NCBI GenBank assembly: GCA_039583875.1
Contig: CM077162.1
Coordinates: 163,267,826-163,331,825, forward strand
Direction of reading: 5' to 3'
Source of the DNA: Platanthera guangdongensis
Taxonomy: Eukaryota > Streptophyta > Magnoliopsida > Asparagales > Orchidaceae
Length of the DNA stretch: 64,000 nucleotides
Each line of letters begins with the position of its first letter. Positions within the stretch are counted from its first letter, which is position 1. A model generated the notes under the pieces. It ran no database searches. It had not been told where the DNA came from and saw only the letters and a list, made by a program, of their open reading frames with translations. Shown in pieces: positions 3,030 to 64,000 of this stretch. The position numbers and the translations under genes are program-made.

Positions 3030-3174
3030 TGTTGGGTACATTGGAAAATATGTACCTGATTTGAAGAAGCCTCACCCTACTTAATGATATACATCAAAAT
3101 GTATTTGATGTGTTTTGAGTTTAGTTGTGCAGGTTAAGTATTTGCAGGGAAAGCTGAAAAGTTTCTAAGTCCGT

Positions 3175-3950: not shown

Positions 3951-4068
3951 AAAATTCAAAAAGTGACTGGATGACTTGACAGCTGCCATTCCAGCCCGTC
4001 TACTGCAACTGTCAGAGCTGTCAGAAAGTCGTTAGAAACCGGATCAACCGGTCACCATGAAGAAGGCC

Positions 4069-4076
4069 TATATAAA
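4069..4076 (+). promoter_or_regulatory. TATA box of the A LTR
   Basis: TATATAAA follows the palindrome array by about 120 bases and precedes a purine-rich stretch that looks like a transcript leader. The same box is in the 3' LTR near 14840. Transcription would start about 30 bases downstream. Confidence 0.75.
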
Positions 4077-4445
4077 GGCCTATTACTTCAACAGAAAGAG
4101 ATGATTGAAAAGAGTTGGAAATCAACAAAGAGTTGTTGAAAGCAATCAAATAAGACCTTCAAGTGAAGATCTAAGAAGTTGGAGAGAGAGAGCTCCTTCC
4201 AAGAAGACAGCTGTTGAATCGGGCTGTAAAGAAAGTTTCAGATTGAGATCTGAATCTTAAGTTGCAGTGATTGAAGATCAGCTGCATAGAGAATCAACCC
4301 TATTGTGTTCTAAATTCAAGAAGCTTTGAAGGAAGCCAAGGAAGGTTGATCTCAGTAAAGTTCTTCCAATAACTCATCAAGAAACCTGTCAACTCTTCTC
4401 TCTTTTTCTGAGTTGTGGGTATATCCATTGTAATTTTAATTTCTT

Positions 4446-4645
4446 GTAGGATCCTTAGGGCCTGTGTGCCTGAGTGTAGGAGATACTTTTCTCTGAGTGT
4501 AGGCCTTATTGAAGGCTGAGTGTAGGTCTTTGTGAAGACTGAGTGGTAGGGTTGTGTGCCTAAGTTGTAGGAGTGGGATCACTCTGAGCTGTAGGAACCT
4601 ATTTGGGGTTCTGAGTGTAAGATCTGAGGATCTGAGGAATAGTGG
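4446..4645 (+). repeat. Hairpin array with constant CTGAG...TGTAGG linker, A 5' LTR
   Basis: Downstream of the TATA box is a chain of short inverted repeats separated by CTGAG(N)TGTAGG. Readable units are GAGA/TCTC, GCCTT/AAGGC, GTCTT/AAGAC, a weak GG/CC unit, GAGTG/CACTC, GAACC/GGTTC and GATC/GATC. Every stem differs, while the linker and the unit length of 25-30 bases are kept. The 3' LTR copy (15219-15462) has additional units. Confidence 0.85.
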
Positions 4646-4828
4646 AGAAGTTGGGCCGAATCTAGTACACTACTAGATAGGCGAAGGGGGAAAGTGGATG
4701 TACCCAGACCTTGGGGAACCACTATAAAACTGTGTGTACTCTGTGTATGTGATTGATTCTGTGTATGCTGTGTTAAAGTTCTGTGAATTCTGTGATTAAT
4801 TCTGCCTAAAGGTTTAAAAAAGATAAGG

Positions 4829-4860
4829 TCACCTATTCACCCCCCCCCCCCTCTAGGTGA
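4829..4860 (+). repeat. C-run hairpin at the end of the A 5' LTR
   Basis: TCACCTA (4829-4835) and TAGGTGA (4854-4860) form a perfect 7-base inverted repeat around a TTCAC-C-run-TC loop, 19 bases before the LTR end. In the 3' LTR the left arm is TCACTTA, which still pairs in RNA through a G-U pair. Confidence 0.85.
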
Positions 4861-4881
4861 TTAGGTACAATTACTTTGAAG

Positions 4882-13800: not shown

Positions 13801-15711
13801 TGTTGGGTACATTGGAAAATATATACCTGATTTGAAGAAGCCTCACCCTACTCAATGATATACATCAAAATGTATTTGATGTGTTTTGAGTTTAGTTGTG
13901 CAGGTTAAGTATTTGCAGGGAAATCTGAAAAGTTTCTAAGTCCATGTGTCGACACACAGAAGGAAAGAGTCGACACTTAAGAAGACTTGTGTCGACACCT
14001 AGAGCAGAAGTGTCGACACTTGGAGTAATTGTGTCGACACCAGGAATGCAGAGTCGACACCAGAAGGAAAGTGTCGACACATACAGTCTGTGTCGACAAA
14101 CAATGAAGAAATTTCCAAAGAAGTTGTATCGACACTTAGAAGCAATATCGACACCCAGAGGAACTTTGTCGACATCAAAAGTGTCGACACTTGGAGGCAG
14201 TGTCGACACTCAGCAAACATCAACAAAGTTTAAGTACAAGTGTCGACACTTGGAGGCTGTGTCGACACTCAGCAAAGTTCAACAAATTCTAAGTACAAGT
14301 ATCGACACAAAGGAGATGTGTCGACACTCAGCAAAAGTCTCAACATAAGAAGAATGTGTCGACACAAGGAGAAGTGTCGACACTCAGCAAAAGTATCAAC
14401 ACAGAAGGCATGTGTCGACACCAAGAAGATGTGTCGACACTTAGCAAGTATCAACACAAGAAGTTGTGTCGACACAAAGGAGTTGTGTCGACACTTACAA
14501 GAAATCAACTAAGTTTCAAAGAAGAAGGACTTGTGTCGACACACAGGATCATTGTCGACACATGTTGAAGATGCAGTGTCGAGAAGCAGATTCTACAACA
14601 CAAGGAAATGTTTTGACACCATGAAGGCTAGTGTCAACACTTAGTCAACTTGTGTCGACACTTAGTCTATCAGTGTCGACACTTAAAGACTGACTGTCTC
14701 GACACTTTCAGACAGTTACAGAAAATTCAAGAAGTGACTGGATGACTTGACAGCTATCATTCCAGCCGGTCTACTGCAACTGTCAGAGCTGTCAGAAAGT
14801 TGTTAGAAACCGGATTAGCCGGTCACCATGAAGAAGGCCTATATAAAGTCCTATTACTTCAACAGAAAGAGATGATTGAAAAGAGTTGGAAATCAACAAA
14901 GAGTTGTTGAAAGCAATCAAAGAAGACCTTCAAGTGAAGATCTAAGAAGTTGGAGAGAGAGAGCTCCTTCCAAGAAAACAGCTGTTGAACCAGGTTGTAA
15001 AGAATGTTTCAGATTGAGATCTGAATCTTAAGTTGCAGTGATTGAAGATCAGCTGCATAGAGAATCAACCCTATTGTGTTCTAAATTCAAGAAGCTTTGA
15101 AGGAAGCCAAGGAAGGTTTATCTCAGCAAAGTTCTTCCAATAACTCATCAAGAAACCTGTCAACTCTTCTCTCTTTTTCTGAGTTGTGGGTATATCCATT
15201 GTAATTTTAATTTCTTGTAGGATCCTTAGGGATCTGAGTTGTAAGCCTGAAATTATAAAGGCTGAGTGGTAGGGCATGTGTGCTTGAGTGTAGGAGATAC
15301 TTTTCTCTGAGTGTAGGCCTTGTTGAAGGCTGAGTGTAGGTATTTGTGAAGACTGAGTGGTAGGGCTGTGTGCCTGAGTTGTAGGAGTGGGATCACTCTG
15401 AGCTGTAGGAACCTATTTGGGGTTCTGAGTGTAAGATCTGAGGATCTGAGGAATAGTGGAGAAGTTGGGTCGAATCTAGTACACTACTACATAGGCGAAG
15501 GGGGAAAGTGGATGTACCCAGACCTTGGGGAACCACTATAAAACTTTGTGTACTCTGTGTATGTGATTGATTCTGTGTATGCTGTGTTAAAGTTCTGTGA
15601 ATTCTGTGATTAATTCTGCATAAAAGTTTAAAAAAGATAAGGTCACTTATTCACCCCCTCCCCCCCCCCCCCCCCCCCGCCCCTCTAGGTGATTAGGTAC
15701 AATTACTTTCA
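13801..15711 (+). repeat. A 3' LTR (1911 bp)
   Basis: A near copy of 3030-4879, with the same palindrome array (13947-14710), TATA box, hairpin array (15219-15462) and C-run hairpin. It is about 60 bases longer because it has extra hairpin units after 15219. The C-run near 15656-15684 is longer and interrupted by T and G. It ends in TTTCA at 15711, followed by TCCTC. Confidence 0.92.
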
Positions 15712-15716
15712 TCCTC

Positions 15717-15927
15717 ACTCAATGCCAAGGAACTGAAGGCGTCGAGTGATCGTGCCTGACTCAATGCTAGAATCTCGACTCGGGTGACCGACTCGGAAAA
15801 CACTTGGAGGGGGCTTGATTCAGGTTTGGCTTCTGAAGATCTCGCAAACCACTAATCCTGGAGGGGAACTTGCTCATCGAATATGGGGTTGTACAGTTAG
15901 ATAGGCTTGATTGCTTCTTAGCCAACA
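15717..15927 (-). repeat. X 5' LTR, upstream part
   Basis: This continues the sequence interrupted at 3029: CCTCACTCAATGCCAAGG is the same repeated word as at 2820-3020. On the minus strand the LTR would begin TGTTGGCTAAGAAGC at 15927. Together with 2151-3029 the LTR would be about 1.09 kb. Confidence 0.6.
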
Positions 15928-38420: not shown

Positions 38421-38981
38421 GCAAAATTGTCTGAATTTGGCTAAATCGACTGGTGCTGAGTCATGATGACATCTGCAAACATTCTAATGTTGCGGGAACG
38501 AAACAGTAGATGACAAATGGCATCGCTTGCCTGTTGTACAACAATTAATGCTAAAGAAAAGTTGCAGCTACCAACTCCATGTGGTCCCACTGCTCAAAGA
38601 GCCGTTGGATGGCGGGATACAAAAGTAGTATTCCAAGGAAGAAGAAATTAACTTTTGGAAATTGATAGCTCTGTCTTCTTCCCCTGAACAGAGTTGCAGA
38701 GCTTGAAGAACTTACCTTTGTTGTTGATCTCAAAGTTTAAGAAAGATAGCGGTTGTCATTCTCACCTTCAACAGCAAGTTCAGGGAGTTTTCTCTCTGAG
38801 GTAGAAGAAGGAACAAATCAATCCCTAGATGCAGTTACTTCATAGCTTATGCAGAACATTCTTGAGGATCCATCCTTTGAGTTGTGAAGAAGATAAGACG
38901 GAGTCATCTCAGTTCAGGAAGAGGAAGACTCAGAGATTATATCTCTAGAGTCAATTTATATCAATAACCAAAACTTCTTTT

Positions 38982-39315
38982 TGTAGGATCTTAACTGATC
39001 TGAGTGTAAGCTTAAATTATAAAGGCTGAGGTAGGATCTTTTTTATAGATCTGAGTTATAGGGTCTTTGTGCCTGAGTTGTAGGATTCTGGTTGAGAATC
39101 TGAGTTGTAGAAGAGTTTCTCTCTAAGGTAGGATCCAGTGGTGGATCTGAGTGTAGGACTTTGAGTTAAAGTCTGAGGTAGGTGTTCTGGAGAAGATCAC
39201 TGAGAGTAGGAGAATATTTCTCTGAGTGTAGGGCCTTGAGCCTAAGGTAGGACTTTGAAGAGTATGAGAGATCCCGAGGGATCTGAGTTGTAAGCTCATT
39301 GAGCTGAGTTTGAAG
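38982..39315 (+). repeat. Hairpin array of F, about 14 units
   Basis: Units of 20-30 bases separated by CTGAG(TTG)TAGG. Stems in order include GATC/GATC, GATCT/AGATC, GATTCT/AGAATC, AGAG/CTCT, GATCCA/TGGATC, GACTTT/AAAGTC, GTG/CAC, GAGAA/TTCTC, GGC/GCC, ACT/AGT, GATCC/GGATC and CTCA/TGAG. Loops are mostly 3-9 bases. The stems differ from unit to unit but nearly all pair perfectly. Confidence 0.88.
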
Positions 39316-39479
39316 TTAGCCTTGTCTAACACACTGTTAGAAAGGTGGGAGGGACAGTGGATGTACCCAAACTTTGGGGAATCACTAAAAATATATGTGT
39401 GTTGATTGTGTATTCTTAAAAGCTACCATAATAATGAGTCACAACACACCTAAGTAACAAGATAGTAGAAAAAGGCACA

Positions 39480-39518
39480 AAAACACATTCACCCCCCCCC
39501 CCCCCTTCTAGGTGTTTT
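39480..39518 (+). repeat. C-run hairpin of F
   Basis: AAAACAC (39480-39486) pairs with GTGTTTT (39512-39518) around the loop ATTCAC-C-run-TTCTAG. The stem sequence is unlike that of A or G. Confidence 0.8.
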
Positions 39519-39724
39519 AGCTATTCCTGAAACTAAAGACTTTCAGCTCCTGCTCTGTCATTCACACAAGTAATTCATACATGATAGGGATTCCGACAAG
39601 CATTTACTAGTAATGAGTGATCTGCAATGTTCTTGATTTTCATCCAGCAACATTGGTGATGTGTCCCCTACGACGTCCCCCCCCCCAACTCAATCAATAC
39701 CCCCTTTTCCAATGTCTATAAATA

Positions 39725-40616: not shown

Positions 40617-42583
40617 TGAAAGTGCAGGTTAGATCTGAAATACTCTAGAGGGGGGTGAATAGAGTATTGTGCTTACTTCAAAACTTTTTACAACTTTTGT
40701 TGTAAGCCTAGGTGAACAGGTCAACAAGTGAAATAAACTAAGCACAGCAAACTAAATAATCACAGAACAACACAGAACAACACAGCCAAAACAAAAAGAA
40801 GGGCAACCAGACGACACAAGAAATTTTATAGTGGTTCCCCAACCTGGGTACATCCACTCTTCTACCACCCTGGTAGAAATCCACTCAGGTTTTTGATCAG
40901 GTGCCTGACACCAATAAGCTTTTGTTCATGTTCTCAAAAACCAAATCTCAAGACTTTTGGAAAGAGACTTGCAACCAGAATAACTTTGAATGGAATTAAA
41001 ACCTTGTACAGGAATTGGAAATAAGGATATGGTGTCTTCTCTTTCTCAAAACAGTTGAGAAGACTTGTTGATTGATTGTAGCAGATTTTACTCCCCCTGA
41101 GATCTTGAACTAATCAGGAATGTTGGAGCACTGCTTTAGGGTTATAGGTCTTCAAAGACCTAGAATGCCTGGACCAGAATTAGCTTCAGGAACTTCTTCG
41201 ACAGATAGTGTTTGTTGTCCTTTGAAGTAGTCCTGTAGAGTTAGAAAGAAGAAGACTCTTGATAGAATTTGATTGTTCTTCTTCTTCTTGAAAATGTTCT
41301 CTGGTCAGGCTGATTGTAGTAGAACTTTTTGATTTGAGTATGATTGTTCTTATGTGCAATCTGAGTGTCAGTCTGATTATCTGTATTGCAGGTGTTGTGT
41401 TCTGTTACTCTTTCATTCTATTCTCTTATGTTTTATTCTATTCTAACTGAGGAGCATTCAAAATTTGAATGTTGAGCAGTAATTGTAGTCGGCCTTGGAA
41501 GGAAGCGGCAATCAATAGTTTCCCTAACTGTCCCATGGAAAAACGGCATGTGATAATCCAAGATTAATGCGCATTCCAACGGTAACATTCCGAGAAGATC
41601 TGGCATTAATTGCTCAGGAATCATTGCCAAAAAACGGGACGGGAAACAGAAGAAGACCTAGTCTGGAATCGTCGACCGAAGAACACAATTCGTCGAGCTG
41701 AGTTTGAGTTCGTCGAGCTGAGCTTGAGTTCATCGAGTTGAGCTTGAGAGAGTTCGTCGACCAGACAATCTTCATTCGTTGAACAGACAATCTTCATTAG
41801 TCGAGCTGAGAACCATCATTTGTCGAGCTGATAATTATCACTGTTAGACAGTATTCGTCGAACTGAGTTTCAAATTCGTCGAGTGAAGAAAGTTTGTGGA
41901 CTTAGCCAAATATTTTGCATCTGCTGATATCCAATGTCAACATAAGTTGGTGTCAACTGATTGATCTTGGTGTCGACTCAAATCTTCTGGTGTCGACATG
42001 AACTGGTGTTGACTAATATCCTGGTGTCGACATAAATCCTCTGGTTTCGACATAAATTGGCTGGTGTCGACACATGACCTAAGTGTCGACACAAATACTC
42101 TGAGTTCAGATTTCGTCGAGTAGAGTACTACATTCGTCGAACTGGGAAGCTGACTTCGTCGACCTAAGAAGCTGAGAACTTGAGGTCCAAGTTCGTCGAG
42201 ATTAGAATCTAATTCGTCGACCAAAGTTTGAAGCTGGACTTATAAAAATTCTGAAGTTATCCTGACTTTAGCTTGATGTAGACACTGAGAGTTCGTAAAA
42301 CAGAGAACTAAGATCATCGAGCTCAGCACTGAGAATTGTCTCACGATCGTCGAGGGCAGAACTCCTTTCGTCAAGCTGAGTTCGACGAACGTCGAACTCA
42401 CTTTACTTAGTCTTGAAGTCCTCTAAGTCTGAAGTCTCTGATGGTCTTGTTGAAGGCTGGTCCATCTGAAGTTGAACCTAAGGACTTGACCTAGACTTTA
42501 AGACACAAACTTGACCCTGGCTATACATGATGGGTCACATCCTAAGTCAGTAAACCTAGCCCAAATCAACTAGGGATCCAACA
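40617..42583 (-). repeat. G 3' LTR (1967 bp)
   Basis: On the minus strand it starts TGTTGGATCCCTAG at 42583 and ends CCTGCACTTTCA at 40617. It contains the TTCGTCGA-type array (41690-42395) with a GTGTCGACA cluster (41940-42105) inside, and near its end the hairpin AATACTCTA/TAGAGTATT (40639-40668) with a C-run loop. Confidence 0.92.
41690..42395 (-). repeat. Palindrome array of the G LTR, two different words
   Basis: The outer parts are repeats of TTCGTCGA(GCTGAG), some as TTCGTCGAA palindromes. The centre (41940-42105) has about nine GTGTCGACA words, as in element A. The right LTR has the same arrangement at 52498-53222. Confidence 0.88.
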
Positions 42584-42600
42584 ATCTCCCCCTATTTGGG
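42584..42600 (-). other. Polypurine tract of G
   Basis: Minus strand CCAAATAGGGGGAGATTG directly precedes the 3' LTR; element A has CCAAATAGCGGGAGATTG at the same place. Confidence 0.82.
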
Positions 42601-42780
42601 TGAGGTCACTAACAAAGACTCAAAATAGAGATAAACAGAAAAATAAAGCAAGAAAAGAAATATATCTGGCAGAGAATTAACAACACATGCAGTAGATATA
42701 TATATATATACACAGCTTTGTTTAAACAGATAGCATAGTTTGAAAAACAAAAACAGACAGAATTTGAAACAACATGAAGA

Positions 42781-45587
42781 TTACTTCTTTTGCTTCTTCT
42801 GCTTGTACCTGTCTTGTGAAGTCTGCTCTCCTGGCTTCTTAAAGATGATTTCTCTCTTTGGATCTGAAGCCTGATCCTTTGTCATAGTCATATCAACTGC
42901 CCCAATAATGTTCAATGATGTAGCTCTGGGGACAACTACTTCTGGATGCAGCTTCATATAATCATCAACATTAAACAATTTATTACATTTGTCAAACCTT
43001 TTCAGCTCTTCCTTTCTATACTTTGACATTGTTGTTAATCCAGAGATATCTTTGCCTTCAGCCTTGGCTTTATTGATTAAAGATAGTCCAATTAATTCCT
43101 GATATCTAGCCATTCTTGCAGTATTTGCAGTTTCAGGATCTTCAAATGGAATTGGAGGAGAGTATGGTCTTTTTGGACTTTCAGCTTGTTGTACTTCAGA
43201 AATATGTTGCTACTGCTGCTGATGCTTTTGTTGACTACCTGAGGATGGCTGCCTCTACTGGCTGCTTCTAGATGATCTCCCTAACTGTCTCTGATAAGTT
43301 TGCATTGGGGCAGATCTCTGGGAGCTAGAGCCACTAGCACCAGCTGCTGGAGGAGGAGGAGGTGGTGGTTCCTTTCTAAATCTGTGAACTAGAGGAGGGG
43401 AATATCTCCTGCTTCTCTTTCTTTCCTTCTGTTGGTTCTTGGATAGCCACATCCATGCAGGCATCCCCTTGTATGGAGTAACATTGCGCAGAATATAATA
43501 GAGAGTGTTTGCAGTGGGATTTGGCTTGGGAGCTGGAGGAGGAGGAGCCTTCCTTTTCTTGGACAGCATTTTCTTTTTCTTACTAGCAGCATCTTCATTT
43601 GATTCATCATCATCATGTTCACTGTCAGAGTCAGAACCCTGAGGGTTATCATGCAGGGCATCCAAAGCTTTTAAAACTTTATCAGAAATAACAGCCTTTT
43701 TTGTAGAAGCAGGGGCAGAAGTTGAGGATTATGGAACTGGAGCTTCAGCAACATGAGAGGAGGGAGCTGCACAGGAAACAAAAACAATAGGGACAGAGCT
43801 TTTAGCTGCTGCCTTATTTTCTTCTTCAATATCAGCTAGAGTTAGATCATCCAAATTAGGCATGGGAGAGTCATCCATAACAAAGCTTGGGGCTGAAATT
43901 ATTTTTGGAATGACTGTAGGTAATGGAACCACAACTGGAGGAGCAAAACTATCATAGAGTTGCTTAGCAACTGCTGGACTTATTAGCCAGGTGTAGGGTA
44001 CAATATCCAAATGTGGCTTAGCAGAGGGTAACTGTACAAAAAGAGTATCAAAATTTTTCAACAAAGCAGACAAATTAACTGTGTGATTTAGCTGGAAATC
44101 ACCAGCATGTTTTATTTGCTCAACTGACTCATCCAAATCAATGTCAGTGTCCATAAAATGAATTAACTCAATCATCTCAGAATCAAAATCTGTCAAAATT
44201 TCTACATCTTCAACTGAATCTGCATCTGCTGGAGAGGGAACTACTTTTGTGACTGCTGATGTTGCATCTGCTGCAACTTCATCATTGAGCATCTCCCCCT
44301 GCCTGGGTTCAGGAATACCTGGAGCCAGGCCCCTGAATGAAGAGGGGGCGGTAGAGAGGGCAGAAATCTGGGTAGATAGAGAATTGATGGAGGTCACAAG
44401 AGGTGTAATGGCCTCTTGGATGAGAGATTTGATGAGGGGAGTGAGCAAGGATATGATGGTAGATTTATCAAATGGGTAAGGGGAAGAGGATGGAATAACA
44501 TGAGTGGATGGAGATGAAGATGGAATGTTGGCATCTGGCATGACAGAGTCTGTGGGTATGTTGTAAGATGGAATGGATGACAAATGAGGGGGAAGAGGAG
44601 ACTGAGGAGGTGTAGGAATAGATGTCTTATGAGGTGAAGCAGGGGGTGTGGGAATGTTGGTAATATCAAGAGGTGGAGATGGAGGTGGAGTAGGCACATG
44701 AGGATGTTGTGGGGATTTATGTGTGGTAATAAGGATTGAAGAGGAGTGGAGTTGTTTGGCTGGAGGTGCAGGAAGAGATGAAGGAGATGGAAGGGCCTCT
44801 TCTGCAGGGTGGGGAGCGGCTTTTACAGCCCTGGTGCTCACAGAATTTTGGATGGAAGAGGAAGAAGCCTTTGAGGGCTTAGAGATAGTCCTCTCCCACC
44901 TACCAAACAGAGCGCAGGTGAGGGGCTTGCTGGCGTTTATGAAGATGTTCGGGGAGACCATACATTCAGCAGCCTTCTCTTGAAGAACAATTCCCAAAAT
45001 TCTGTCGAAGCAGACTTCCTTCTTACTATTTTTTTCTTTATCAATTCAAAGAAGATTGTGCCCTAGTTGACACGTCTCTTGTTCACCACAGCGCACATAA
45101 CCAGGAACTGGTAGCAGGTTATGTAATCATACGCTGAGTGCTTGCCCATCAGCACTTTTCCTATAATGTCTGCCAGAAACTGGTACGCGGCAGACAGTCG
45201 CTTCTTCAACAGTTTGTTAGGGTTGCTTCCTGTAAACCCCATTAGTTTCAGCATATCACCAAACTCTTCAGAGTCCATTTCCATGTTATCTTATCCATTG
45301 ACTAAGCCAAAAATCTCAGACAGAATTGCGGGAGATAGGGAAACCGCAGTAGTCCCGATGGTGCCTGTCAGAACATCTTCCGCAGAAACAGTAGATGTAT
45401 ACACCCATTGTCGGATTTCTGTCGCATGTATTTTAATTCCTATGGTCATGAAGTCCTTTAGATTGAGTACTTCCAGCAGTTCCAAAATATGCAAAAAGAT
45501 GGGGTCAGAATGTTGAAAGGAATCGAAATCCATATCGAAACCAGTATCGAATTTCATTGTCGCGAGGGTGCTTGCTGGAATCGCCAT
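42781..45587 (-). pseudogene. Accessory ORF of G
   Basis: Frames from ATG 45587 (MAIPASTLATMKFDTGFDMD) down to 42781 encode a long protein after pol, broken at 45291, 45063 (then an in-frame gap to 44997), 43729 and 43255. The core FLADIIGKVLMGKHSAYDYITCYQFLVMCAVVN corresponds to FLSEIVGKVILRKPGGHDRISAYMFSLMTRIIF of A, so both descend from one gene. The middle (44850-44400) is very rich in Pro and Ser, and the end is basic (KKKKMLSKKRKAPPPP and KQKKQKK at the end). No membrane segment is apparent. The 20 bases before the ATG on the minus strand end TTTTCTTGCAGGTCACC, which looks like a splice acceptor. Confidence 0.72.
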
Positions 45588-45674
45588 TGGTGACCTGCAA
45601 GAAAATCACAGAGAAAAACGGAGATCAAGAGCAAAATAACTGAAAGCGCGGGACGGAGGTCGAAGAAAACCTAG

Positions 45675-45990
45675 ATATAAGATTTTCAGAATATGAATCG
45701 ACAATCTCCGTTCCACGAAAAAAAGAAATTCTTCGAACTGAGCTTGACGAAATAAATTATGGATAGATAATTCGTCGATCTCATCGAGAAGAATCGAAAA
45801 CAGTTCATCGAACTCCGTTTGATGAATTATCTTCTGAAGCAAAGTTCGTCGATCTCCGGTCGATGAAAATTGTTTCCACACACAGAGAATTCATCGATCT
45901 CCGGTCGACGATAATCTCTCAAACTTTACCTAATTCGTCGAACTCCGTTCGACGAACTCTGGAAAATTCGTCGAATGCAGACAGAAGTTA
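45675..45990 (-). repeat. Palindrome block between pol and accessory ORF of G
   Basis: About ten TTCGTCGA(A/T) and matching TCGACGAA words lie between the end of pol (about 46010) and the accessory ATG (45587), the same position as the GTGTCGACAC block in A. A weak TATA-like TTATATCT lies on the minus strand near 45680. Confidence 0.75.
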
Positions 45991-46009
45991 ATTTAACTCT
46001 TCTCCATTG

Positions 46010-47460
46010 ATCATTCCCAATTGATTTATAAAGAACAGATGAGTTTTCTTATCCAAGGGCTTGGTGAAAATGTCTGCTCTCTGTAAAATAGTAGGAATAT
46101 GGATTAAGTTAATTTTCTTTTTGTCTACATTATCTCTAATGAAATGATGTCTTATTTCAATATGTTTAGTCCTAGAATGGTGAACTAGATTCTATGCTAT
46201 AGCAATAACACTAGTATTATCACAAAATAATGTTGAATTATTTAAGTTGACACCATAGTCTAGGAGTTGGTTTTTTATCCATAACATTTGTGAACAGCAG
46301 CTGCCAGCAGCCATGTATTCTGCTTCTGTAGTTGATGTAAACACAGATGTCTGTTTTTTACAAAACCAGGAGACAAGTCTCATACCAAGGAACTGGCAAG
46401 TTCCAGAGGTACTTTTTCTGTCCACTCTACATCCAGCATAGTCAGCATCTGAGTATCCAGTTAACTCAAACTCTAACTCTGCAGGATACCAAAGTCCTAG
46501 ATTAGGGCAACTCTTTATATATCTCAAAAATCATTTTAGGAAAATAAGTTGAGATTCTTTAGGGTTCACTTGGAACCTAGCACAAAGGCATGTGGCAAAC
46601 ATTATGTCAGGTCTGCTAGCTGTTAGGTATAATAGGGATCCAACAATTACCCTATAATGCTTCTGATCTACAGGTTTCCCTGCTGCATCAGAATCCACAA
46701 CAGCATTTGTAGCCATAGGGGTTTTCATTCCTGAAGCATCACTCATCCCAAACTTCTTAATAAGCTCTTTAGCATACTTAGCTTGGGAGAGGAAGACACC
46801 ATCATGGAGCTGCTTCACTTGGAGACTAAGGAAGTAGGAAAGCTCACCCATGCTACTCATCTCAAATTTAGAATGCATGAGGTCAGCAAACCTCTTGTAT
46901 AATTTGGGATCAGTAGACCAAAAAATAATGTCATATACATATATTTGTACTAACAATATTTAGTCCTTATGATGTCTAGTGAAAAGTGTTTTATCTATGG
47001 TTCCTCTTGTAAATTCATGCTCTAAAAGAAAGCCTGCTAGGGTCTCATACCAAGATCTTGGAGCTTGCTTTAAACCATAGAGAGCTTTATACAATTTAAA
47101 AACAAAAGAGGGTTGAGTTGGAGAGATAAAACCTGGAGGTTGTTCTACATAAACCTCTTCTTGAAGTACTCAATTCAGAAATGCACTTTTGACATCCATC
47201 TGGTAGACCTTGAATCTCTTGTAAGCTGCATAGGCAAGGAATATCCTAATGGCCTCTAACCTTGCAACAGGGGCAAAAGTTTTGTCATAGTCTATTCCTT
47301 CCTCTTGTGTGTAGACTTGAGCAACAAGCCTAGCCTTGTACCTCACTATGTTGTCTTGAGCATCCAACTTGTTCCTGCAGACTCATTTGGTTCCAATAAC
47401 TGGGTTGTTATGGGGTCTTGGAACCAAGTCTCAAACTCTACATCTCCCAAACTAGTTTAG
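46010..47460 (-). pseudogene. pol: Reverse transcriptase and RNase H of G
   Basis: One frame with stops. [38 protein letters not shown] and MDVKSAFLN (47340-47170) are followed by a stop, then PRSWYETL, and LVQIYVYDIIFWS (about 46950-46915), where the catalytic YVDD is changed to YVYD. Then SLLYLTASRPDIMFATCLCARF, RYIKSCPNLGLWYP, RNase H YSDADYAG, STTEAEYMAAGSCC and FCDNTSVIAIA. After a stop at 46192 KHIEIRHHFIRDN-like sequence and the DIFTKPL motif end the gene near 46030. Confidence 0.88.
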
Positions 47461-47481
47461 TTCCTCTTGCATTGCAATGAT

Positions 47482-49160
47482 CTAGTGGGGATCTTGCTTA
47501 GCTTCATGGATGGTGAGAGGTTCAATTTGAGAGAGAAAACAGGCATGCATCAAGTCTTGGTTGAGTTGATGCCTTGTTTGTACACCTGCTGAAATGCCTC
47601 CAATCATTTGAGATCTGGGGTGATCTCTAAGTGTGACAAGATCAGTTGGTGGAGTTGGTTGAGCAACAGCTTCTGTAATTAATTCCTCTTGGGGAATGGT
47701 ACTAGTTATTGAGGGAAGTTCAGCCACTTCCTCTTGAATTTCTTCTTCACTATCTTCAGCAACCTGTGGAGTAGGATGGGTTGATACCTCTTGGGTAAGG
47801 TTTAGTCCATTCATAGATTCACACAGTGGTGGAACCTGCAAAAAGCTATTGGTAGAAATCTCTTTCTCCTTATAAGACATGTTAGCTTCATCAAAAGATA
47901 CATGAACAGATTCTTCAATTTTAAGGGTGGATTTATTAAAAACCCTATTGGCCTTGCTTACTTGTGAATATCCTAGAAAAATCCCTTCTTCAGCCTTAGC
48001 CTCAAACTTTCTAATGTATCTCTCGTTATTTGTGTGAATGTAGCAAATACAATCAAAAACTTTAAAATATGTGATTTTAGGTTTCTTCTCTTTAAGTAAT
48101 TCATAGGGGGTCTTATTTTTCAGTTTATGTATAAGGCTTCTATTCAGGACATAGTTGGCAGTATTTACAGCTTCTACCCAAAAGGATAGAGGCATGTAAG
48201 CATCTGCCAATAATGTGCCTGCAGATTCAATGAGTGTCCTATTTTTCCTTTCAGCAACCTCATTTTGTTAGGGAGTTCTAGGAGCTGAGAAGCACTGTCT
48301 GATACCTTCCTTCTCACAGAACTCATGCATAAGAAGAGACTCAAACTCTGTGTCATGATCACTTCTGATCAATGCAACATGAGTAGAGAACTCAATCTGT
48401 ATAGTCCTGAGAAAATCTGTAAGAACCTTGAATGTATCTGACTTAGTTCTCAGAAAGGCTACCCAACTGAATCTAGAGAAGTCATCAACAATCACTAAAG
48501 TATAAGACTTCCCTCCTAGGCTTTGCACTGCAATGGGTCCAAACAGATCCACATGAAGCAAATATAAAATCCTAGGTGAATCACTTTTATTAATGGATTT
48601 AAAACTAGTTTTGGTTTGCTTGCCTAATTGACAGGCTCTGCATAGGCTTTCCTTCTTGTAGGGGCCAGAAGGTAAACCTCTAACAAGGTTGTCTTTAGAT
48701 AACCTAGATATATTCTTAAGGTTTACATATCCTAATCTTTTATGCCATAACTCATTTTGATTACTAGTAACATTCAGTAAGCAGATATCAGTTGTGGTAG
48801 ATATAAAATCCACTAGATATATGTTGTCTTGTCTAAGTCCAATTAAAACAGTTTTGTTTTTATTATCAATAATAGAACAGGAAGTAGAGTTAAAATGTAC
48901 CTGATAACCTTCATCATATAATTAACTTATGGATATAAGGTTATGTTTAAGTCCTCTTACATATGTTACTTTCTTGAAAGTCACTGCTCCAATCTTCACT
49001 GCCCCATATCCTTCTGCTTGACCATTGTTGGAATCTCCAAAATTCACCTTTGGTCCTAGCTTGGGCTTGTAGTTTGACAAATTTGCCTTGCTGCCTGTCA
49101 TGTGTTTGGAGCACCCACTGTCCAAGTATCAGGTCTGACTTACCCTTGTACAGCTCTTCA
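47482..49160 (-). pseudogene. pol: Protease and integrase of G
   Basis: The protease motif MDSGCSKHMTG is at 49125-49093, just after a stop that replaces the usual preceding residues. VRGLKHNLISIS ends at a stop at 48922. Integrase has WHKRLGYVNL, CRACQLGKQTKTSF, the catalytic D in HVDLFGP, D in IRSDHDTEFES and E in EVAERKNRTL; a TAA replaces the first Gln of TPQQNE at 48268. VFNKSTLKIEESVHVSFDE and a linker with many acidic residues follow to the stop at 47482, where TAG stands for the Trp of PHW. Confidence 0.88.
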
Positions 49161-49384
49161 CCTATACCTGTAATGAAAAACAAAACTCAATTGTTCTTGA
49201 CCCAGGTTACCTTGGATCCTTTATTTGGTTGAAATGAAAAGCTGGAAATAACTGATAATGCAGGTTGAGATTTATAACCTAAGGGGTGATATCTCCTTGG
49301 TGGAATAACCCAATCAGCTATTGGATTAAATGTCTTATTAGTTGGCTTACAATTTTTGTAAGAGAAATGATTTAGGTTTGGTCT

Positions 49385-49635
49385 TTCTGGGTTCGACGAA
49401 TTGTTGTAAGTTCGTCGACCAGATTTCGACGAATAGGGATGAGAACGTCGATCTCTGCTCAGAGAATGACTGTAATCATTTTCTGTGCCCTAAGTTCGTC
49501 GACCTCTGCTCGACAAACCATACACAGTTCGTCGATCGTAGTTAGACGAATTGTTATTACCAAAATTTGCGTTCCGCGTTCGTCGATTTGGGTTAGACGA
49601 ACTGGCTACATTTCGTCAATCTGCGTTCGACGAAT
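49385..49635 (-). repeat. TTCGTCGA palindrome block at the gag-protease junction of G
   Basis: About 250 bases with some ten TTCGTCGA or TCGACGAA words inside the coding part, reading SSN-x-DRRT-type peptides on the minus strand. Element A has no such block here. Confidence 0.75.
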
Positions 49636-49636
49636 G

Positions 49637-51271
49637 CTACTGAACTTTATTTTTATTGACTATTTTCTGATTTTTGTTTCTCTTGTCTATAGGTTTAGGA
49701 TTGTTTTCAGATAATGGTTTGTTTATTAACTTTTCTTTTCCCTTTGCAGAAATAAACTTGATGGGGGTTGAAAGAATATTCTTCTTTATTATGGGGGGTA
49801 AACTTGATGAAGCACCCAAGCCCAGCTTGCCATTTAATCTGGCATTCACTGTGCTTGTAATGTCCATCAACTTGAGGCTTCTCCCATTGAGAGATTGCTC
49901 AAGTTGTTTAGCCTCACATAATTCAGATTTTAGTTTAATTATTTGTTCATTAGCTAAGGTTAATTTATCTATTAGCTTAATATTTTCTGAATTTACAGAT
50001 TCAAGACTTTCTAGTCTTTCTCTAAGAGTTTTTATTTCCTTTTCTGAATTGATTAGGTCTAAGCACATAGATTTGAATTCAGTTTTAAATAAATCAGAAC
50101 TAAAGTCAAAGCTATAAATAACCTGATCTACCTCTGAGTCTGAGGCAGCTTCATCTTCAAATTCTTCTTCTGATCCAGAGTTGCTCCTGGAGGCATCAAT
50201 TGCCATTAGGCAGACCTCCTTGGATCTAGCTTCTTCCTCTTCTTCACTTGAACTGGAAGAGGATGTTTCTTCTTCAGTGTCACTCCAAGTCTCAGCAACA
50301 AATCCCTTGTCTTTCTTTTTATATTTGCTGGTGGAGGGTCTGCTGTTGTGTCTTCTCCTGGAATGCTTCTCTCTGCTCTTGTCCTTCTTCTGATTTTCTG
50401 GACATTCTGAGATGTAATGTCCAGGCTTTCTGCAACCAAAGCACACAACCTACTTGGTTGGTGTCTTGTCATATTTGGGCTTATCATCCTGTCTGGATGA
50501 CTTCCTTCTGAAATCCTTCCTTGCCATCTTGTAGAACCTTTCGGCAAAGAGGCTCATGAGTTCTTCATTTGAAGTTGATGTCTCACTTTCTTCAGATGCT
50601 TTGAAGGCTATGCTGTGCTCCTTTCTAACTGGAGTTGTTGCCTTCTGTTCTGCTGCCTCTCTTGATTTGATCAGCTGCTCATAGGACTTCAATTTGCCTA
50701 GTAGAGACTCAGTTGATATCTCATTGAGGCTTCTGGCTTCTTTGATAGGCCAGATTCTGGAATCCCAAGAGCTTGGGAAGCACGTCAATATCTTGTCATT
50801 CACCTCTGTCAAGGTGATGTCCTTATCCAGGGTTTTGTGCTCATTGATGATTGTGCTCAATCTGTTGTACATTTCTGCCACTGATTCATTCTCATCCTTT
50901 TTAAAGTTCTCATACAGGGATATGAGATTGGATCTTCTGTCCTTTCTTTAATCTGCAGAGCCAGCTACCATTTGGTTGAGGGAATCCCAAATGGCTTTGG
51001 CTGAGGTACACTCAGCCACCTTCTGGAATATGTCATCTGACATAGTTTGTGCTAATATATTCATTGCCTTAGCATCTGCCATCTTGGCTTTCTTGTAGGC
51101 ATCATTATTTTCTAGAGGAGGCACTGCAGTCATGTTGGTAGAAGTACTGGTAGAAGGTGCAGGTGCTGGAGGTACACCTGTCAAGATAACAGAAAAGATA
51201 TCCTCATCAATAGAATTCATGTATAACCTGATTCTTGCCTTCCAGATGGCAAACTTGTTAAGATTGCACAC
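49637..51271 (-). pseudogene. gag: Gag of G
   Basis: One frame with stops at 50948 and 50450. The capsid part reads MCNLNKFAIWKARIRLYMNSIDED and TSAKAIWDSLNQM, then VNDKILTCFPSSWDSRIWPIKEA. The zinc knuckle CFGCRKPGHYISEC is complete (50443-50402). The C-terminal half is Ser/Glu rich (50330-50150) and then coiled coil (NSEKEIKTLRERLESLESV and following, 50060-49880), the Sirevirus gag pattern seen in A. Confidence 0.9.
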
Positions 51272-51429
51272 TGGAGGTCTGATTCTTGCATAGTCTTTGT
51301 TTTGGGCCGTGTCTGTGAAGAGATAAATCTAATAACAAACTTAAAACAAACAGATCTAACTAGAGGGATATTTGTCGTTCAGGTGTTAGCCTGTACAACC
51401 AATAAGGTAGGGTATTTTAACCAACCTTC

Positions 51430-51441
51430 CTCTGATACCAA
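51430..51441 (-). other. Primer binding site of G
   Basis: Minus strand TGGTATCAGAGG, complementary to the 3' end of initiator methionine tRNA, one base after the LTR. Confidence 0.88.
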
Positions 51442-51442
51442 T

Positions 51443-53410
51443 TAAAAGTGCAGGTTAGATCTGAAATACTCTAGAGGGGGGTGAATAGAGTATTGTGCTT
51501 ACTTCAAAATGTTTTACAACTTTTGTTGTAAGCCTAGGTGAACAGGTCAATAAGTGAAATAAACTAAGCACAACAAACTAAATAATCAAAAACCAACAAG
51601 AACAACACAACCAAAACAAAAAGAAGGGCAGCCAGACGACACAAGAAATTTTATACTGGTTCCCCAACCTTGGTACATCCACTCTTCTACCACCCTGGTA
51701 GGAATCCACTCAGGTTTTTGATCAGGTGTCTGACACCAATGAGCTTTTGTTCAGGTGCTCAAAAACAAAATCTCAAGTCTTTGGAAGGAGACTTGCAACT
51801 ATAATAATTTTGAAGGGAATTAAAACCTTGTACAGGAATTGGAAATAAGGAGATGGTGTCTTCTCTTTCTCAAAACAGCTGAGAAGACTTGTGGATTGAT
51901 TGTAGCAGATTTTGCTCCTCCTGAGATCTTGAACTAATCAGGAATGCTGGAGCACTACTTCAGGGTGATAGGTCTTCAAAGACCTAGAATACCTTGACCA
52001 TAATTAGCTTCAGAAACTTCTTTGACAAATACTGTTTGTTGTCCTTTGAAGTAGTCCTGTAGAGTTAGAAATAAGAAGACTCTTGATAGAATTTGATTGT
52101 TCTTCTTCTTCTTCTTGAAAATGTTCTCTGGTCAGGCTGATTGCAGTAGAACTTTTTGATTTGAGTATGATTGTTCTTCTGTGCAATCTGAGTGTCAGTC
52201 TGATTGTCTGTATTGCTGGTGTTGTGTTTTGTTACTCCTTCATTCTATTCTCTTCTGTTCTATTCTATTCTAACTGAGGAGCATTCAAAATTTGAATGTT
52301 GAGCAGTAATTATAGTCGGACTTGGAAGGAAGCGGCAATCAATAGTTTCCCTAACTGTCCCATGGAAAAATGGCATGTGATAATCCAAGATTAATGCGCG
52401 TTCCAACGGTAACATTCCGAGAAGATCTGGCATTAATTTCTCAGGAATCATCGCCAATAAACTGGACGGGAAACAGAAGAAGACCTAGTCTGGAATCGTC
52501 GACCGAAGAACACAATTCGTCGAGCTGAGTTTGAGTTCGTCGAGCTGAGCTTGAGTTCGTCGAGCTGAGCTTGAGAGAGTTCGTCAACCAGACAATCTTC
52601 ATTCATCGAACAGACAATCTTCATTAGTCGAGCTGAGAACCATCATTTGTCGAGCTGATAATTATCACTGTTAGACAGTATTTTTCGAACTGAGTTTCAA
52701 ATTCGTCGAGTGAAGAGAGTTTGTGGACTTAGCCAAATATTCTGTATCTGCTGATATCCAGTGTCGACATAAGCTGGTGTCGACTGATTGATCTTGGTGT
52801 CGACTCAAATCTTCTGGTGTCGACATGAACTGGTGTTGACTAATATCCTGGTGTCGACACAAATCCTCTGGTGTCGACATAAATTGACTGGTGTCGACAC
52901 ATGCCCTAAGTGTCGACACAAATACTCTGAGTTCAGATTTATTCGAGTAGAGTACTACATTCATCGACCTGGGAAGCTGACTTCGTCGACCTGAGAAGCT
53001 GAGAACTTGAGGTCTAAGTTCGTCGAGCTCAGAATCTAATTCGTCGAACAAAGTTTGAAGCTGGACTTAGAAAAATTCTGAAGTTGTCCTGACTTTAGCT
53101 TGATGTAGAAACTGAGAGTTCGTCGAATAGAGAACTTAGATCATCGAGCTCAGCACTGAGAATTGTCTCACGATCGTCGAGCGCAGAACTCCTTTCATCG
53201 AGCTGAGTTCAACGAACGTCGAACTCACTGTAATTAGTCTTGAAGTCCTCTAAGTCTGAAGTCTCTAATGGTCTTGTTGAAGGCTGGTCCATCTGAAGTT
53301 GAACCTAAGGACTTGACCTAGACTTTAAGACACAAACTTGACCCTGGATATACATGATGGGTCACATCCTAAGTCAGTGAACCTAGCCCAAATCAATTAG
53401 GGATCCAACA
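51443..53410 (-). repeat. G 5' LTR (1968 bp)
   Basis: A near copy of 40617-42583, same ends and arrays, with AATACTCTA (51465-51473) and TAGAGTATT (51486-51494). Several differences from the other LTR are CG to CA or TG changes in the palindromes. Confidence 0.92.
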
Positions 53411-53415
53411 CGAGG

Positions 53416-54029
53416 TTAGGACATCATTTAACCTTATCGCGGGAATGATGTCTATCCCTGAGAATCCTATGGATGAGGAATCCACCTCAAGACCTTCTAC
53501 CATTATCGCGATGTGGGAGCCCAAGTGCGAGGTGTCCTCATGGCCAAAGTGTCGGCATAAGGAGTGCGCCCAGTAGCACATGAATGATGGCGATGAGGAA
53601 GGATCCGGGGTCCCATCCTCATACCCCAATTTTGTTCGTAGGGTCAGTGAGATAGACCGCTTCGGTCTCCCATTGGTCACCTGGGATGACAAGGAGAAAG
53701 TCATCCACTCGTGCACAATCTTACCTCCATGGTTGGAGGATAGGGAAGATAAGGGCGCAGGATTCCAAGTCGCCTTCAGTGTTTATGGTCATGAGGATGC
53801 AATTGCACTGCAGGAGTCCTCTCCTAACTCCTTGGCAAATAAGACCTTATGCTTGGCCCTACGAATGGTATATCTCGCACAATATATGACAAGGCAGCAG
53901 CTGGCAGCCGATGCAAAGATTAAGATCGTTAGCGACTTCAACAAAAAAACTTCAAAATTTGCTAGGAGAATCTAAGGTGAAGGTCATTGAGTGTTAGCCC
54001 TACGAGGTGATAGTGGTTAGCAATATATA
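53416..54029 (+). pseudogene. K: gene remnant, middle part
   Basis: This is the target sequence between G and H and directly continues 40616. An open frame at 53580-53975 starts MNDGDEEGSGVPSSYPNFVRR and contains ALRMVYLAQYMTRQQLAADAKIK. I do not recognise it; by position it would be the C-terminal half of the K protein or an intron-bearing copy. Confidence 0.4.
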
Positions 54030-54527: not shown

Positions 54528-56271
54528 TGAAAGAATTGGTTCCTAAACACCTAGAGGGGGGTAAATAGGTTCAATTCTTTTTCCTTCTAAGGCAGAATAT
54601 TAATTCAGTTAATTAATAGAAACATATAGTTCTACAGTTATCACAACACAGAAATAACAATACCATACACAATCACAGATGACACATTGATTTATAGTGG
54701 TTCCCCAAGGTCTGGGTACATCCACTTTTCCCCCTTCGCCTATCTAGCAGTGTGCTAGATTCGGCCTAACTTCTTTCCTTCTCCTCAGATCCGCAGATCT
54801 TACAGCTCAGAACCCAAACAAGGCTCCTACAACTCAGAGTGAGTCCACACTCCTACAGCTCAGGCAATCTGCCCTATCTCGGCCTTCAACAAGGCCTACA
54901 ACTCAGAGATGAAAATCTTCTACAACTCAGGCTCTCAGCCTTACCTCAGCCTTCAACAAGGCCTACCACTCAGAGAACTTAATCTCCTACAACTCAGCCT
55001 TTATAAATCAGGCTTACAACTCAGATCTTAAAAAGATCCTACTGAAAATATATGTAAATTTGAAATTTACCACCACCCTGCTTGAGAGAGAAAGGATGGA
55101 AGGTTTCTTGATCAGTTCCTGAAAGAATCTGATGTTAGAGATCAACCTGTCTTAGCTTTCTTCAAAGCTTCTTGAATCTGAACACGGTAGGGTTGATCTC
55201 CTTTGAAGTTGATCTTCAATCAGCTTCTTTTTTGAAATTCAAAAATCAATCTGAATTCTTTTTGGCAGACTGTTTCAGAATCTGCACTTAAGAGACTTGT
55301 TGATGTAAGTCCCTTTCTTCACTTGAATAGATGGAGCTCTCTCTCTCCAAATTCTTCTAAAGATTCTTCTGAATTCTTCTTTGAATTCTCTTGACAAACT
55401 CTGAGTAGATCACCACTTAAGAATATCTTCTTAGATCTTCTGTTGAAAATCTTCTTCTGTTTTTCGTGTTTTTTTATCTCATCTATTATATATCATCTGT
55501 TGATAGAGAATGTCTTTATATAAACTTCCTCTATGGTAACCGGCTGATCCGATTTCTAACGAACTTCTGACAGCTCTGACAGCTTCAGTAGACTTGTTGA
55601 ATATCACAGCTGTCAAGTCTTCAGTCACTTCTTGAAACTCTGTCTCTGTTAGCAAAGTGTTGAGACTGAACTTCATCATGTGTCGACACAAGTAGACTAA
55701 GTGTCGACACAAGCATTGATGGTGTCGACACAGCTCCCTTGGTGTTGACACTGCTTCTCGACACAGCTTCTGTAGAATGTGTCGACACTAGTTCTGTGTG
55801 TCGACACAGTCACTTCTTCTCTTCACAAAAAAAAATAACTTTGTTGAAACTCTGCTATGTGTCGACACAAGTCCTGTGTGTCGACACAGTTGATGTCGAC
55901 AAAGTCTTCTGTGTATCGACACTGCCTCTGTGTGTCGACACAGTTGATGTCGACTAAGCTTTTCTGTGTGTCGGCACTGCCTCTGTGTGTCGACACAGTT
56001 TCTTCTGGTGTCGACACAGCCTTTCCAAGTGTCGACACAATTGACTACAGGTGTCGACACAGCTTTTCTCCAGTGTCGACACAAGCCTTCATAAGTGTCA
56101 ACACAGCTTCTTCTGGTGTCGACTCATGGACTTAGAAACTTTTCTTGCATTCCTGTATTTTCTTAACCTGCACATATAAACTAAAAACAACATCAAATAC
56201 ATATTGATGCATATCATTGAGTAAGGTGAGGCTTATTCAAATCTGGTACATATTTTCCAATGTACCCAACA
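54528..56271 (-). mobile_element. J: solo LTR of an A-type Sirevirus, TSD GAATC
   Basis: 1744 bases with exact GAATC copies at 54523-54527 and 56272-56276. On the minus strand it starts TGTTGGGTACATTGG, as A, and has the GTGTCGACAC array (55678-56125), a TATATAAA box near 55520, a hairpin array (54790-55040) and a C-run hairpin (54549-54570). It is related to A but clearly diverged. No internal region is present. Confidence 0.92.
54790..55040 (-). repeat. Hairpin array of J
   Basis: On the minus strand the linker CTGAG(TTG)TAGG separates stems GATCTT/AAGATC, AGCCT/AGGCT, GAGA/TCTC, GCCTT/AAGGC (twice), GGC/GCC, GAGTG/CACTC and GAGCC/GGTTC. The last corresponds to GAACC/GGTTC in A with a change that keeps pairing as G-U. 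Confidence 0.82.
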
Positions 56272-63215: not shown

Positions 63216-63750
63216 ACTTGCGGCTTCCAACATATGAGTAGTTATTCATACATGCCCCCTATGCTCGTATACTCTCCTACAAAGGTAGATAGTGTTAAGT
63301 GGGTCGTATAGGACTCCCACACTAAAGTATTAGCTCCTTCTCATTTTGAGACCATTTGCCCAGCTACTAAAGAATTCAACAAAGAGTTAATTGCATCAAC
63401 TTTTTTGATGATGAATGATCTTTCTTTAACATGAAGAAGGTCTTCATTTCCTCAGGTTGGAAGGTTGGCTCTTAGCTCTCTCTCGATAACATTTATATCC
63501 AGATGAGATGTGTAATTGGGGGGGGGGGGTCATCGGTCAACATGCAAGGGGAAGCTAATCTCGGCCATCATTGCTGAGGCTTGGACTTAAAAGGATGAAT
63601 TAAAATACCTGACGCACTATCTCATCATCTATTCTGAGTGTTATGAGTGTTGAGCTAGAGGCCCATTTCCTAACTAGATCGTGGAGATTGATCATCTACA
63701 TCAATGAATTATCATTTGGATAAAACTAATTTTAATTTTTAAACTAATCT
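63216..63750. other. Unassigned non-coding sequence
   Basis: I see no gene or complete element here. There is a G-run of ten at 63520-63529 and some similarity in base style to the end of copia LTRs from about 63600. Confidence 0.4.
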
Positions 63751-63753
63751 GCA

Positions 63754-64000
63754 AACCTTATTCACCCCCCCCCCCCCCCTCTAAGGTTGGTCATCCAATT
63801 CAACAAGACACACCACAATCCAATCAAAATACAAGCACACATTAATTTATAGTGGTTTCTCGAGATGGGTATGCCCACTCCCTCCCCCCCCCCTCCGCCT
63901 ATCTAGAAGTGTGTTAGACTCGACAAAACTCCAACCAAAACTTAGATCCACAAATCCTACAACTCAGAGACCAAGTCTCCTATATTAGAGGCATAGGATG
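63754..64000 (-). repeat. L: fragment of a Sirevirus-type LTR at the window edge
   Basis: From about 63840 the sequence reads, on the minus strand, in order from the window edge: hairpin unit GAGAC/GTCTC with linker CTGAGTTGTAGG, GATT/GATC, a stretch like CTAGATAGGCG, GAGTGGGCATACCCA and ACCACTATAAATT. It is an A/J-type LTR in minus orientation. The C-run hairpin next to it (AACCTTA 63754-63760, TAAGGTT 63782-63788) is in the opposite orientation. Confidence 0.7.

Follow-up and report, generated by a model that had tools for sequence, protein, structure and literature searches.

Retrotransposons form much of many plant genomes, yet, to our knowledge, little has been established about the cis-acting RNA signals that serve their packaging, dimerisation and reverse transcription in plants. 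In HIV-1, the R hairpin TAR occurs in LTR-derived RNA and, as cTAR, in its cDNA. The array reported here would likewise be hairpin structure in LTR-derived RNA and cDNA, but TAR is one long hairpin and the array is a chain. The RM boxes of Sireviruses consist of a single sequence repeated upstream of the TATA box and, in the accessible part of their description, are discussed as regulatory DNA (PMC2829016). Many palindromes in a Sirevirus LTR are common to both systems; the hairpin array, however, follows the TATA box in two elements (A and L), and its stems differ while its linker is constant (compared with the same sections of PMC2829016). This position, together with 17 distinct 5' arms among 37 units, led us to reject identity with an RM palindrome array; palindrome arrays (GTGTCGACAC and others) are present in the window as well. 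The miRNA-like hairpin regions of maize Copia LTRs, partly Sirevirus, also place structure within Copia LTRs, but they were identified through their low folding energy and are associated with small RNAs and methylation, and the available portion of that report describes no constant-linker modular array (PMC10760457). Retroviral 5' leader packaging signals have in common with the array a row of stem-loops and unpaired guanosines at a junction; as outlined in the part of the source at hand, they comprise four stem-loops with their own roles, whereas the array has 8-14 similar modules in variable number (PMC13257266). RNA structures that have multiplied through duplication and carry short unpaired repeats are likewise found in flavivirus and pestivirus 3'UTRs, but these belong to the 3' end of RNA viruses and, to judge from the accessible text, apparently include no single-linker chain of mini-hairpins (PMC3960163). 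We rate Sirevirus RM palindromes and multi-stem-loop leaders as the nearest known features, and place the array among structured retroelement leaders; a literature search conducted mainly on titles and abstracts, with few subscription journals covered, found no description of such an array.

The window, i.e., the whole stretch of DNA analysed, comprises 64,000 nt of Platanthera guangdongensis (GCA_039583875.1, CM077162.1, 163,267,826-163,331,825, forward strand). It holds five arrays in the LTRs of elements A, F, L and M, those in the 5' and 3' LTRs of A (A5 and A3) being copies of each other:

38986..39305, + strand: F array, 14 hairpin units with linkers GAG-N-GTA
4458..4633, + strand: A5 array, 8 units, lacking the first two units of A3 except for a remnant of unit 1
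15220..15447, + strand: A3 array, 10 units
54787..55039, - strand: L array, 11 units
63944..63980, - strand: M array, last 2 units; the remainder would fall past the window end

The four hosts are Sirevirus-like Ty1/copia LTR groups, an assignment made from protein domains for A and from the LTRs for F, L and M. The domains of A follow the copia order, with integrase before reverse transcriptase (Pol_BBD, gag_pre-integrs, rve, SH3_retrovirus, RVT_2); the rve match scores 32.0 bits against a cut-off of 32.6. A C-run followed by TCTAG, corresponding to the polyC-rich integrase signal of Sireviruses, occurs in sense near the LTR end in A, F, J and L; M lacks it in this orientation, the C-run of its LTR being on the strand opposite its array. 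In J, a further element, ATTGGTATCAGAGG differs by one mismatch from the 9-base Sirevirus PBS TATCAGAGC, and in A TATCAGAGG follows a degenerate form of the CA/ATTGG junction. Element A looks broken, because the frame opened by its likely gag ATG, located at 4994 (+), is 35 codons long and its pol domains are spread over several separate open frames. It seems to be inserted into the palindrome array of another LTR, with ACTCAATGCC motifs on both sides (2816-3030, 15705-15730). L (54528-56271, -) resembles a solo LTR with GATTC on either side, and J (40640-53420, -) an element with CCTCG at both borders.

An earlier note on this DNA had described about 14 minihairpins in F, and 14 units were indeed counted on the + strand, each a stem-loop-stem' usually with GTA in front and GAG behind:

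38986-39001, + strand: unit 1
39009-39027, + strand: unit 2
39034-39052, + strand: unit 3
39061-39074, + strand: unit 4, 3 flush pairs
39083-39101, + strand: unit 5
39110-39124, + strand: unit 6, A.C at pair 1
39131-39148, + strand: unit 7
39156-39174, + strand: unit 8
39181-39201, + strand: unit 9, 3 flush pairs
39209-39223, + strand: unit 10
39231-39243, + strand: unit 11, 3 flush pairs
39250-39265, + strand: unit 12, poor (-0.8 kcal/mol alone)
39269-39284, + strand: unit 13, stem GATCC/GGATC
39293-39305, + strand: unit 14

All six stem pairs that had been named (GATCCA/TGGATC, GACTTT/AAAGTC, GATTCT/AGAATC, GATCT/AGATC, GAGAA/TTCTC, GATCC/GGATC) are found in F as placed. Stems are mostly 4-6 bp, units are spaced 19-28 nt from start to start, and a flush stem of at least 4 pairs is formed by 8/14 F units (G-U allowed, unit 13 scored in the wrong register). 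Stems were said to share no sequence and yet to pair; the pairing is kept, but pair 1 is G-C in 33/37 units and pair 2 is A-T in 22/37. Similarly, the constant unpaired part of the linker given as CTGAG(TTG)TAGG is GAG-N(0-2)-GTA, the longer form including bases that belong to the stem closure. Linkers start with GAG in 31/33 cases and end with GTA in 30/33.

That this pairing exceeds chance was borne out by every control in F: the Watson-Crick stem lengths sum to 46, against a mean of 5.2 and a maximum of 19 when unit cores were shuffled (n=5,000), and a mean of 17.9 and a maximum of 30 when 3' arms were exchanged among units (5,000 trials). The related claim, that pairing is kept while letters change, holds across 37 pooled units (F 14, A3 10, L 11, M 2; A5 omitted because it is almost the same as A3). 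At pairs 2-4, which the constant pair encloses, own-partner pairing amounts to 102/111, against a mean of 41.9 and a maximum of 68 in 20,000 within-array arm permutations, trials that overstate independence because the units share descent by duplication. When each distinct 5' arm was represented by a single unit (17 units), 43/51 positions pair (permutation mean 15.9, maximum 30). Pair 2 is Watson-Crick in 37/37 units and uses all four types, followed by 33/37 at pair 3, 32/37 at pair 4 and 20/27 at pair 5; pairs 2-5 each covary at a level reached by 0/5,000 permutations, pair 1 being uninformative since it is constant. Unit kinship is not a sufficient explanation, because complementarity exists at the correct offset only: sliding the partner by 1-3 bases left 4/74 to 40/111 paired, compared with 100/111 unslid (an earlier segmentation, with F unit 13 in the wrong register).

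A strict detector (TA, A or G, a stem of at least 4 flush Watson-Crick pairs, T, then GAG or AAG), run on both strands of the 64 kb, gave 29 matches, all within the five arrays (A5 6, A3 7, F 7, L 8, M 1), and block-shuffled windows (n=20) gave 0-6 each. The weak spot is A3 without the constant pair, where 3/9 units have stems of at least 4 pairs, a count reached by 6/5,000 shuffles; M, with 2 units, is too small for a chance test of its own. Shuffles, arm permutations, the detector and pair covariation together rule out chance pairing. An ordinary tandem repeat is ruled out as well, since stems differ with pairing kept. TRF reported one 14-nt stretch of 2.9 copies and nothing more in the F array, and a 23-nt unit of 2.5-2.8 copies in A, where some adjacent units are alike. 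A search of the window against Rfam returned 0 matches at the gathering threshold.

The A and L arrays are not fully independent, because their LTRs are related (about 75-83% alike over matched pieces). Gaps in the A-L alignment are whole units. Among nine orthologous A/L units, with the letters of three of the nine taken from A5 rather than A3, two have a compensatory pair, three pairs are altered one-sidedly with pairing intact, and A leaves one innermost position without a partner; in A3 itself, pair 3 of GGTATTTGTGAAGACT is disrupted. The two-unit loss in the A 5' LTR looks like a deletion between TAGGG repeats.

Since pairing and linker are kept while stem letters and unit number are free, we read the linkers as repeated sites and the hairpins as spacers. 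Our preferred explanation, held tentatively and at somewhat less than an even chance, is that selection maintains the array as a modular secondary structure within the transcribed 5' leader, its linkers being recognised sites, putatively for Gag. Each module would be a small hairpin located in R and/or U5 of this Sirevirus-like Ty1/copia group, its stem letters drifting with compensation so that pairing alone would matter. The G/U-rich linker GAG-N-GUA, kept in sequence and mostly unpaired, would be the recognised part, presenting a row of about 8-14 equal sites that the hairpins would keep open at regular spacing. The likeliest binder would be the element's own CCHC zinc-knuckle Gag, choosing full-length RNA for the particle. 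The diversity of the stems may be explained by the loss that tandem copies of one stem would suffer through slippage and template switching during reverse transcription. Gag binding is our first candidate because, in the sections available, Sirevirus Gag is described as carrying a CCHC zinc knuckle (PMC2829016) and a lentiviral packaging region as leaving guanosines unpaired where stem-loops meet, which is interpreted as a Gag site (PMC13257266). The earlier note had likewise suggested that the hairpins could bind Gag, drive packaging or dimerisation, or shield the genome RNA, all of them putative roles here. The array may represent a novel type of RNA element in retroelements, a hairpin-linker chain offering equal binding sites to a putative Gag or host protein and lengthening or shortening by single units within one group of plant retrotransposons, a proposal that we regard as plausible but short of probable. 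Because it is modular and covaries clearly, the array gives probing and deletion studies a well-defined object; it is also a natural experiment that keeps structure while leaving sequence free.

Stem quality bears on a mutational origin. Watson-Crick pairs occupy 135/148 stem cells, and the mismatches (G.T 5, A.C 3, other 5) point to no clear strand of selection. Such near-perfect stems lacking a strand preference could arise without selection if reverse transcriptase, to which these elements are exposed in each reverse transcription, perfected imperfect inverted repeats by intra-strand template switching. We regard this by-product as improbable, since it leaves the conservation of the linker, the avoidance of ATG and the gain or loss of whole units unexplained.

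The surroundings of the array are ordered. From upstream to downstream, A shows a palindrome array, TATA box, leader of ~380 nt, hairpin array, terminal stem-loop, conserved box, GT-rich stretch, polyC signal and LTR end; in both A and L the array sits between the TATA box and the conserved stem-loop and box:

4068..4078, + strand: TATA box of the A 5' LTR, CTATATAAAGG
14839..14849, + strand: TATA box of the A 3' LTR
55515..55522, - strand: TATA box of L, TATATAAA
38616..38625, + strand: degenerate TATA-like motif of F, GATACAAAAG, weakly assigned by eye and not reliably placed by alignment
4661..4677, + strand: terminal stem-loop of the A 5' LTR, TCTAGTACACTACTAGA
15475..15491, + strand: terminal stem-loop of the A 3' LTR, one pair broken
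54743..54759, - strand: terminal stem-loop of L, TCTAGCACACTGCTAGA, compensatory to A
39325..39341, + strand: terminal stem-loop of F, TCTAACACACTGTTAGA
4694..4728, + strand: conserved box of the A 5' LTR, whose ATG opens a 9-codon uORF and which ends in ACTATAAA
15508..15542, + strand: conserved box of the A 3' LTR
54691..54725, - strand: conserved box of L, with a 9-codon uORF
39357..39391, + strand: conserved box of F, a hairpin, with A-rich CTAAAAA in place of CTATAAA
40825..40857, - strand: conserved box of the J 3' LTR, the comparison family, with no array upstream

The terminal stem-loop shows compensatory changes among A, L and F and has two pairs broken in M. Over the five sequences of stem-loop and box, support from covariation is weak: 2 pairs are changed on both sides (matched by 135/500 shuffles), and 15/500 shuffles match the covariation score and 436/500 the further pair types. 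In A, L and J the box (GTGGATGTACCC..GGGGAACCACTATAAA) forms a hairpin with a TATAAA motif at its end; its folding is poorer in F and M. Despite sharing this downstream box, the J LTRs have no array by detector or by eye. Box patterns and a piece of the A reverse transcriptase had no match in viral_contigs, nor the box pattern any in genome_contigs; both collections are non-plant, and the result therefore says nothing on spread.

Far-upstream elements of the UGUA type are CFIm-type sites, and the array could be a 3'-end processing platform in which unpaired UGUA or UUGUA linkers, brought close by the hairpins, play this part for a poly(A) signal within the box. TGTA ends 21/33 linkers, and in A the distance from the array end to ACTATAAA is 88 nt. 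Nevertheless, TGTA is found in just 6/13 F linkers and GAG is better kept (31/33 overall), F has CTAAAAA instead of CTATAAA, and an array in R would stand at both RNA ends, so that we hold this function to be rather unlikely. Use of the TATAAA motif downstream of the array in A and L for polyadenylation would place the array in R; if R of Sire elements is 10 bp, as the consulted part of one report estimates (PMC3601003), the array would lie in U5.

Folding the arrays locally gave a more favorable picture than folding them whole. With pairs limited to 28 nt, z scores of the sense RNA are -2.4 (F), -3.3 (A3), -2.4 (A5), -4.3 (L) and -0.9 (M), and those of the antisense RNA -4.0, -4.4, -2.9, -4.3 and -1.8; DNA parameters applied locally to both strands give -4.2 to -6.0 for F, A3, A5 and L, and -1.6 and -2.0 for M. 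Unlimited sense RNA folds are no better than dinucleotide shuffles in F (z -0.46) and A3 (-0.39) and modestly better in L (-1.80); the J stretch has z -1.09 and antisense F -2.50. In full-length folds the designed pairs have a mean probability of 0.30-0.38 in sense and 0.54-0.67 in antisense, and linkers are unpaired with probability 0.60-0.73 and 0.83-0.97, respectively. Shuffling the insides of units never left the linkers as unpaired (0/15 in each of 3 arrays). The G/U-richness of the sense linkers favors mispairing wherever folding is not kept local. The cDNA strand, as modeled, may thus be the working form.

The general hairpin-richness of LTR DNA was considered as a source of these scores. 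The J and F-upstream stretches are weak (z -0.9 to -1.6, equalled by 9-38 of 200 shuffles) and the stretch downstream of A5 has z above 0, but the leader upstream of A5 is itself structured (z -2.8 to -4.2), so that structure is not confined to the array. The leader ahead of the array is rich in small hairpins in both A (4085-4450, +) and L (55040-55475, -), and an A/L consensus fold of it, biased because predicted on the same alignment, has 78 pairs, of which 14 are compensatory, 8 one-sided and 10 broken.

A chain that forms locally on both strands under DNA parameters in F, A3, A5 and L, and whose best full-length folds come from the antisense strand, invites a role in minus-strand transfer. 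The array, in R, would let the genomic RNA 3' end and the minus-strand strong-stop DNA form matching hairpins and, much as HIV TAR and cTAR do, zip together through their differing loops and stems in one register, which the differing stems would fix; the TATAAA motif and GT-rich stretch after the array in A would mean R. We consider this model unlikely, as it leaves linker conservation unexplained, J does without such an array, and the 10-bp estimate of R, as given in the part of the source seen, would move the array to U5 (PMC3601003). Several of these observations count against the preferred Gag-site explanation as well, namely the weak full-length sense folds, the better antisense chain, the local z scores that are stronger with DNA parameters than for sense RNA, the structured leader ahead of the array in A, and the presence in J of the box without the array; the stem mismatches, which favor neither strand clearly, weigh on the same side.

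The earlier note had placed the array in an LTR transcript downstream of the TATA box, and sense ATG avoidance from the TATA box through the array lends this support. Between the TATA end and the box there are 1 sense ATG in A5 (10.6 expected), 3 in A3 (12.2), 2 in L (12.3) and 3 in F (10.1, counted from the weakly assigned TATA), expectations being derived from dinucleotide shuffles, of which 0, 0, 0 and 1, respectively, out of 500 each are as low. CAT is near expectation (A5 3 vs 4.4, A3 5 vs 5.5, L 7 vs 8.5, F 6 vs 6.1). In A5 and L these ATGs are found within about 35 nt of the TATA box, close to the presumed start site or ahead of it. When counted from a later start (just after the ATG at 4101 in A5, ~50 nt past the TATA box in L), ATG ranks first for depletion among the 64 triplets in A5, A3, L and F (long stretch), and second in the short F stretch; no ATG depletion is seen in U3 of A5, L and F over the stretches counted. 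The J stretch has 5 ATG against 9.0 expected (20/300 shuffles as low). The three longest ATG-free runs of both strands are sense leaders:

4102..4697, + strand: A 5' LTR, 597 nt, longest run of the + strand
54722..55481, - strand: L, 761 nt, longest run of the - strand
40930-41415, - strand: J, 487 nt

Against full specificity, the minus strand has ATG-free runs of 486 and 392 nt facing the arrays of A5 and F, in a C-poor setting. The array is probably a transcribed 5' leader: with ATG rare in sense and CAT near expectation, the leader is probably present in sense RNA and scanned by ribosomes. ATG avoidance could also mark the start sites of such LTRs.

A leader of this kind might act in translation, the long ATG-poor chain of weak hairpins slowing or routing scanning ribosomes ahead of short uORFs and gag. 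The runs of 597 nt (A5) and 761 nt (L) are each followed by the 9-codon box uORF, and in A uORFs of 1 and 3 codons come next, then the likely gag ATG at 4994. The 487-nt run of J is free of ATG without any array, however, and ATG avoidance does not therefore need the array; we judge a translational device improbable.

Some minor observations concern the edges of the arrays and the LTR end. Directly ahead of the F, A and L arrays, a T-rich stretch with TAG or CAG as its last bases resembles a plant 3' splice site:

38970-38986, + strand: T-rich stretch before the F array
4440-4447, + strand: T-rich stretch before the A5 array
55040-55060, - strand: T-rich stretch before the L array

Some linkers (GAGGTAAG, GAGGTAG) resemble 5' splice sites. 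Near the LTR 3' end, the C-run lies within a hairpin loop, and the stems around it vary from group to group and yet pair (J ATACTCTA/TAGAGTAT, A CACCTA/TAGGTG, M CCTTA/TAAGG):

4825-4875, + strand: C-run hairpin
39475-39525, + strand: C-run hairpin
54535-54590, - strand: C-run hairpin
40630-40680, - strand: C-run hairpin
63748-63800: C-run hairpin of M, seemingly inverted, since its strand is not that of the array
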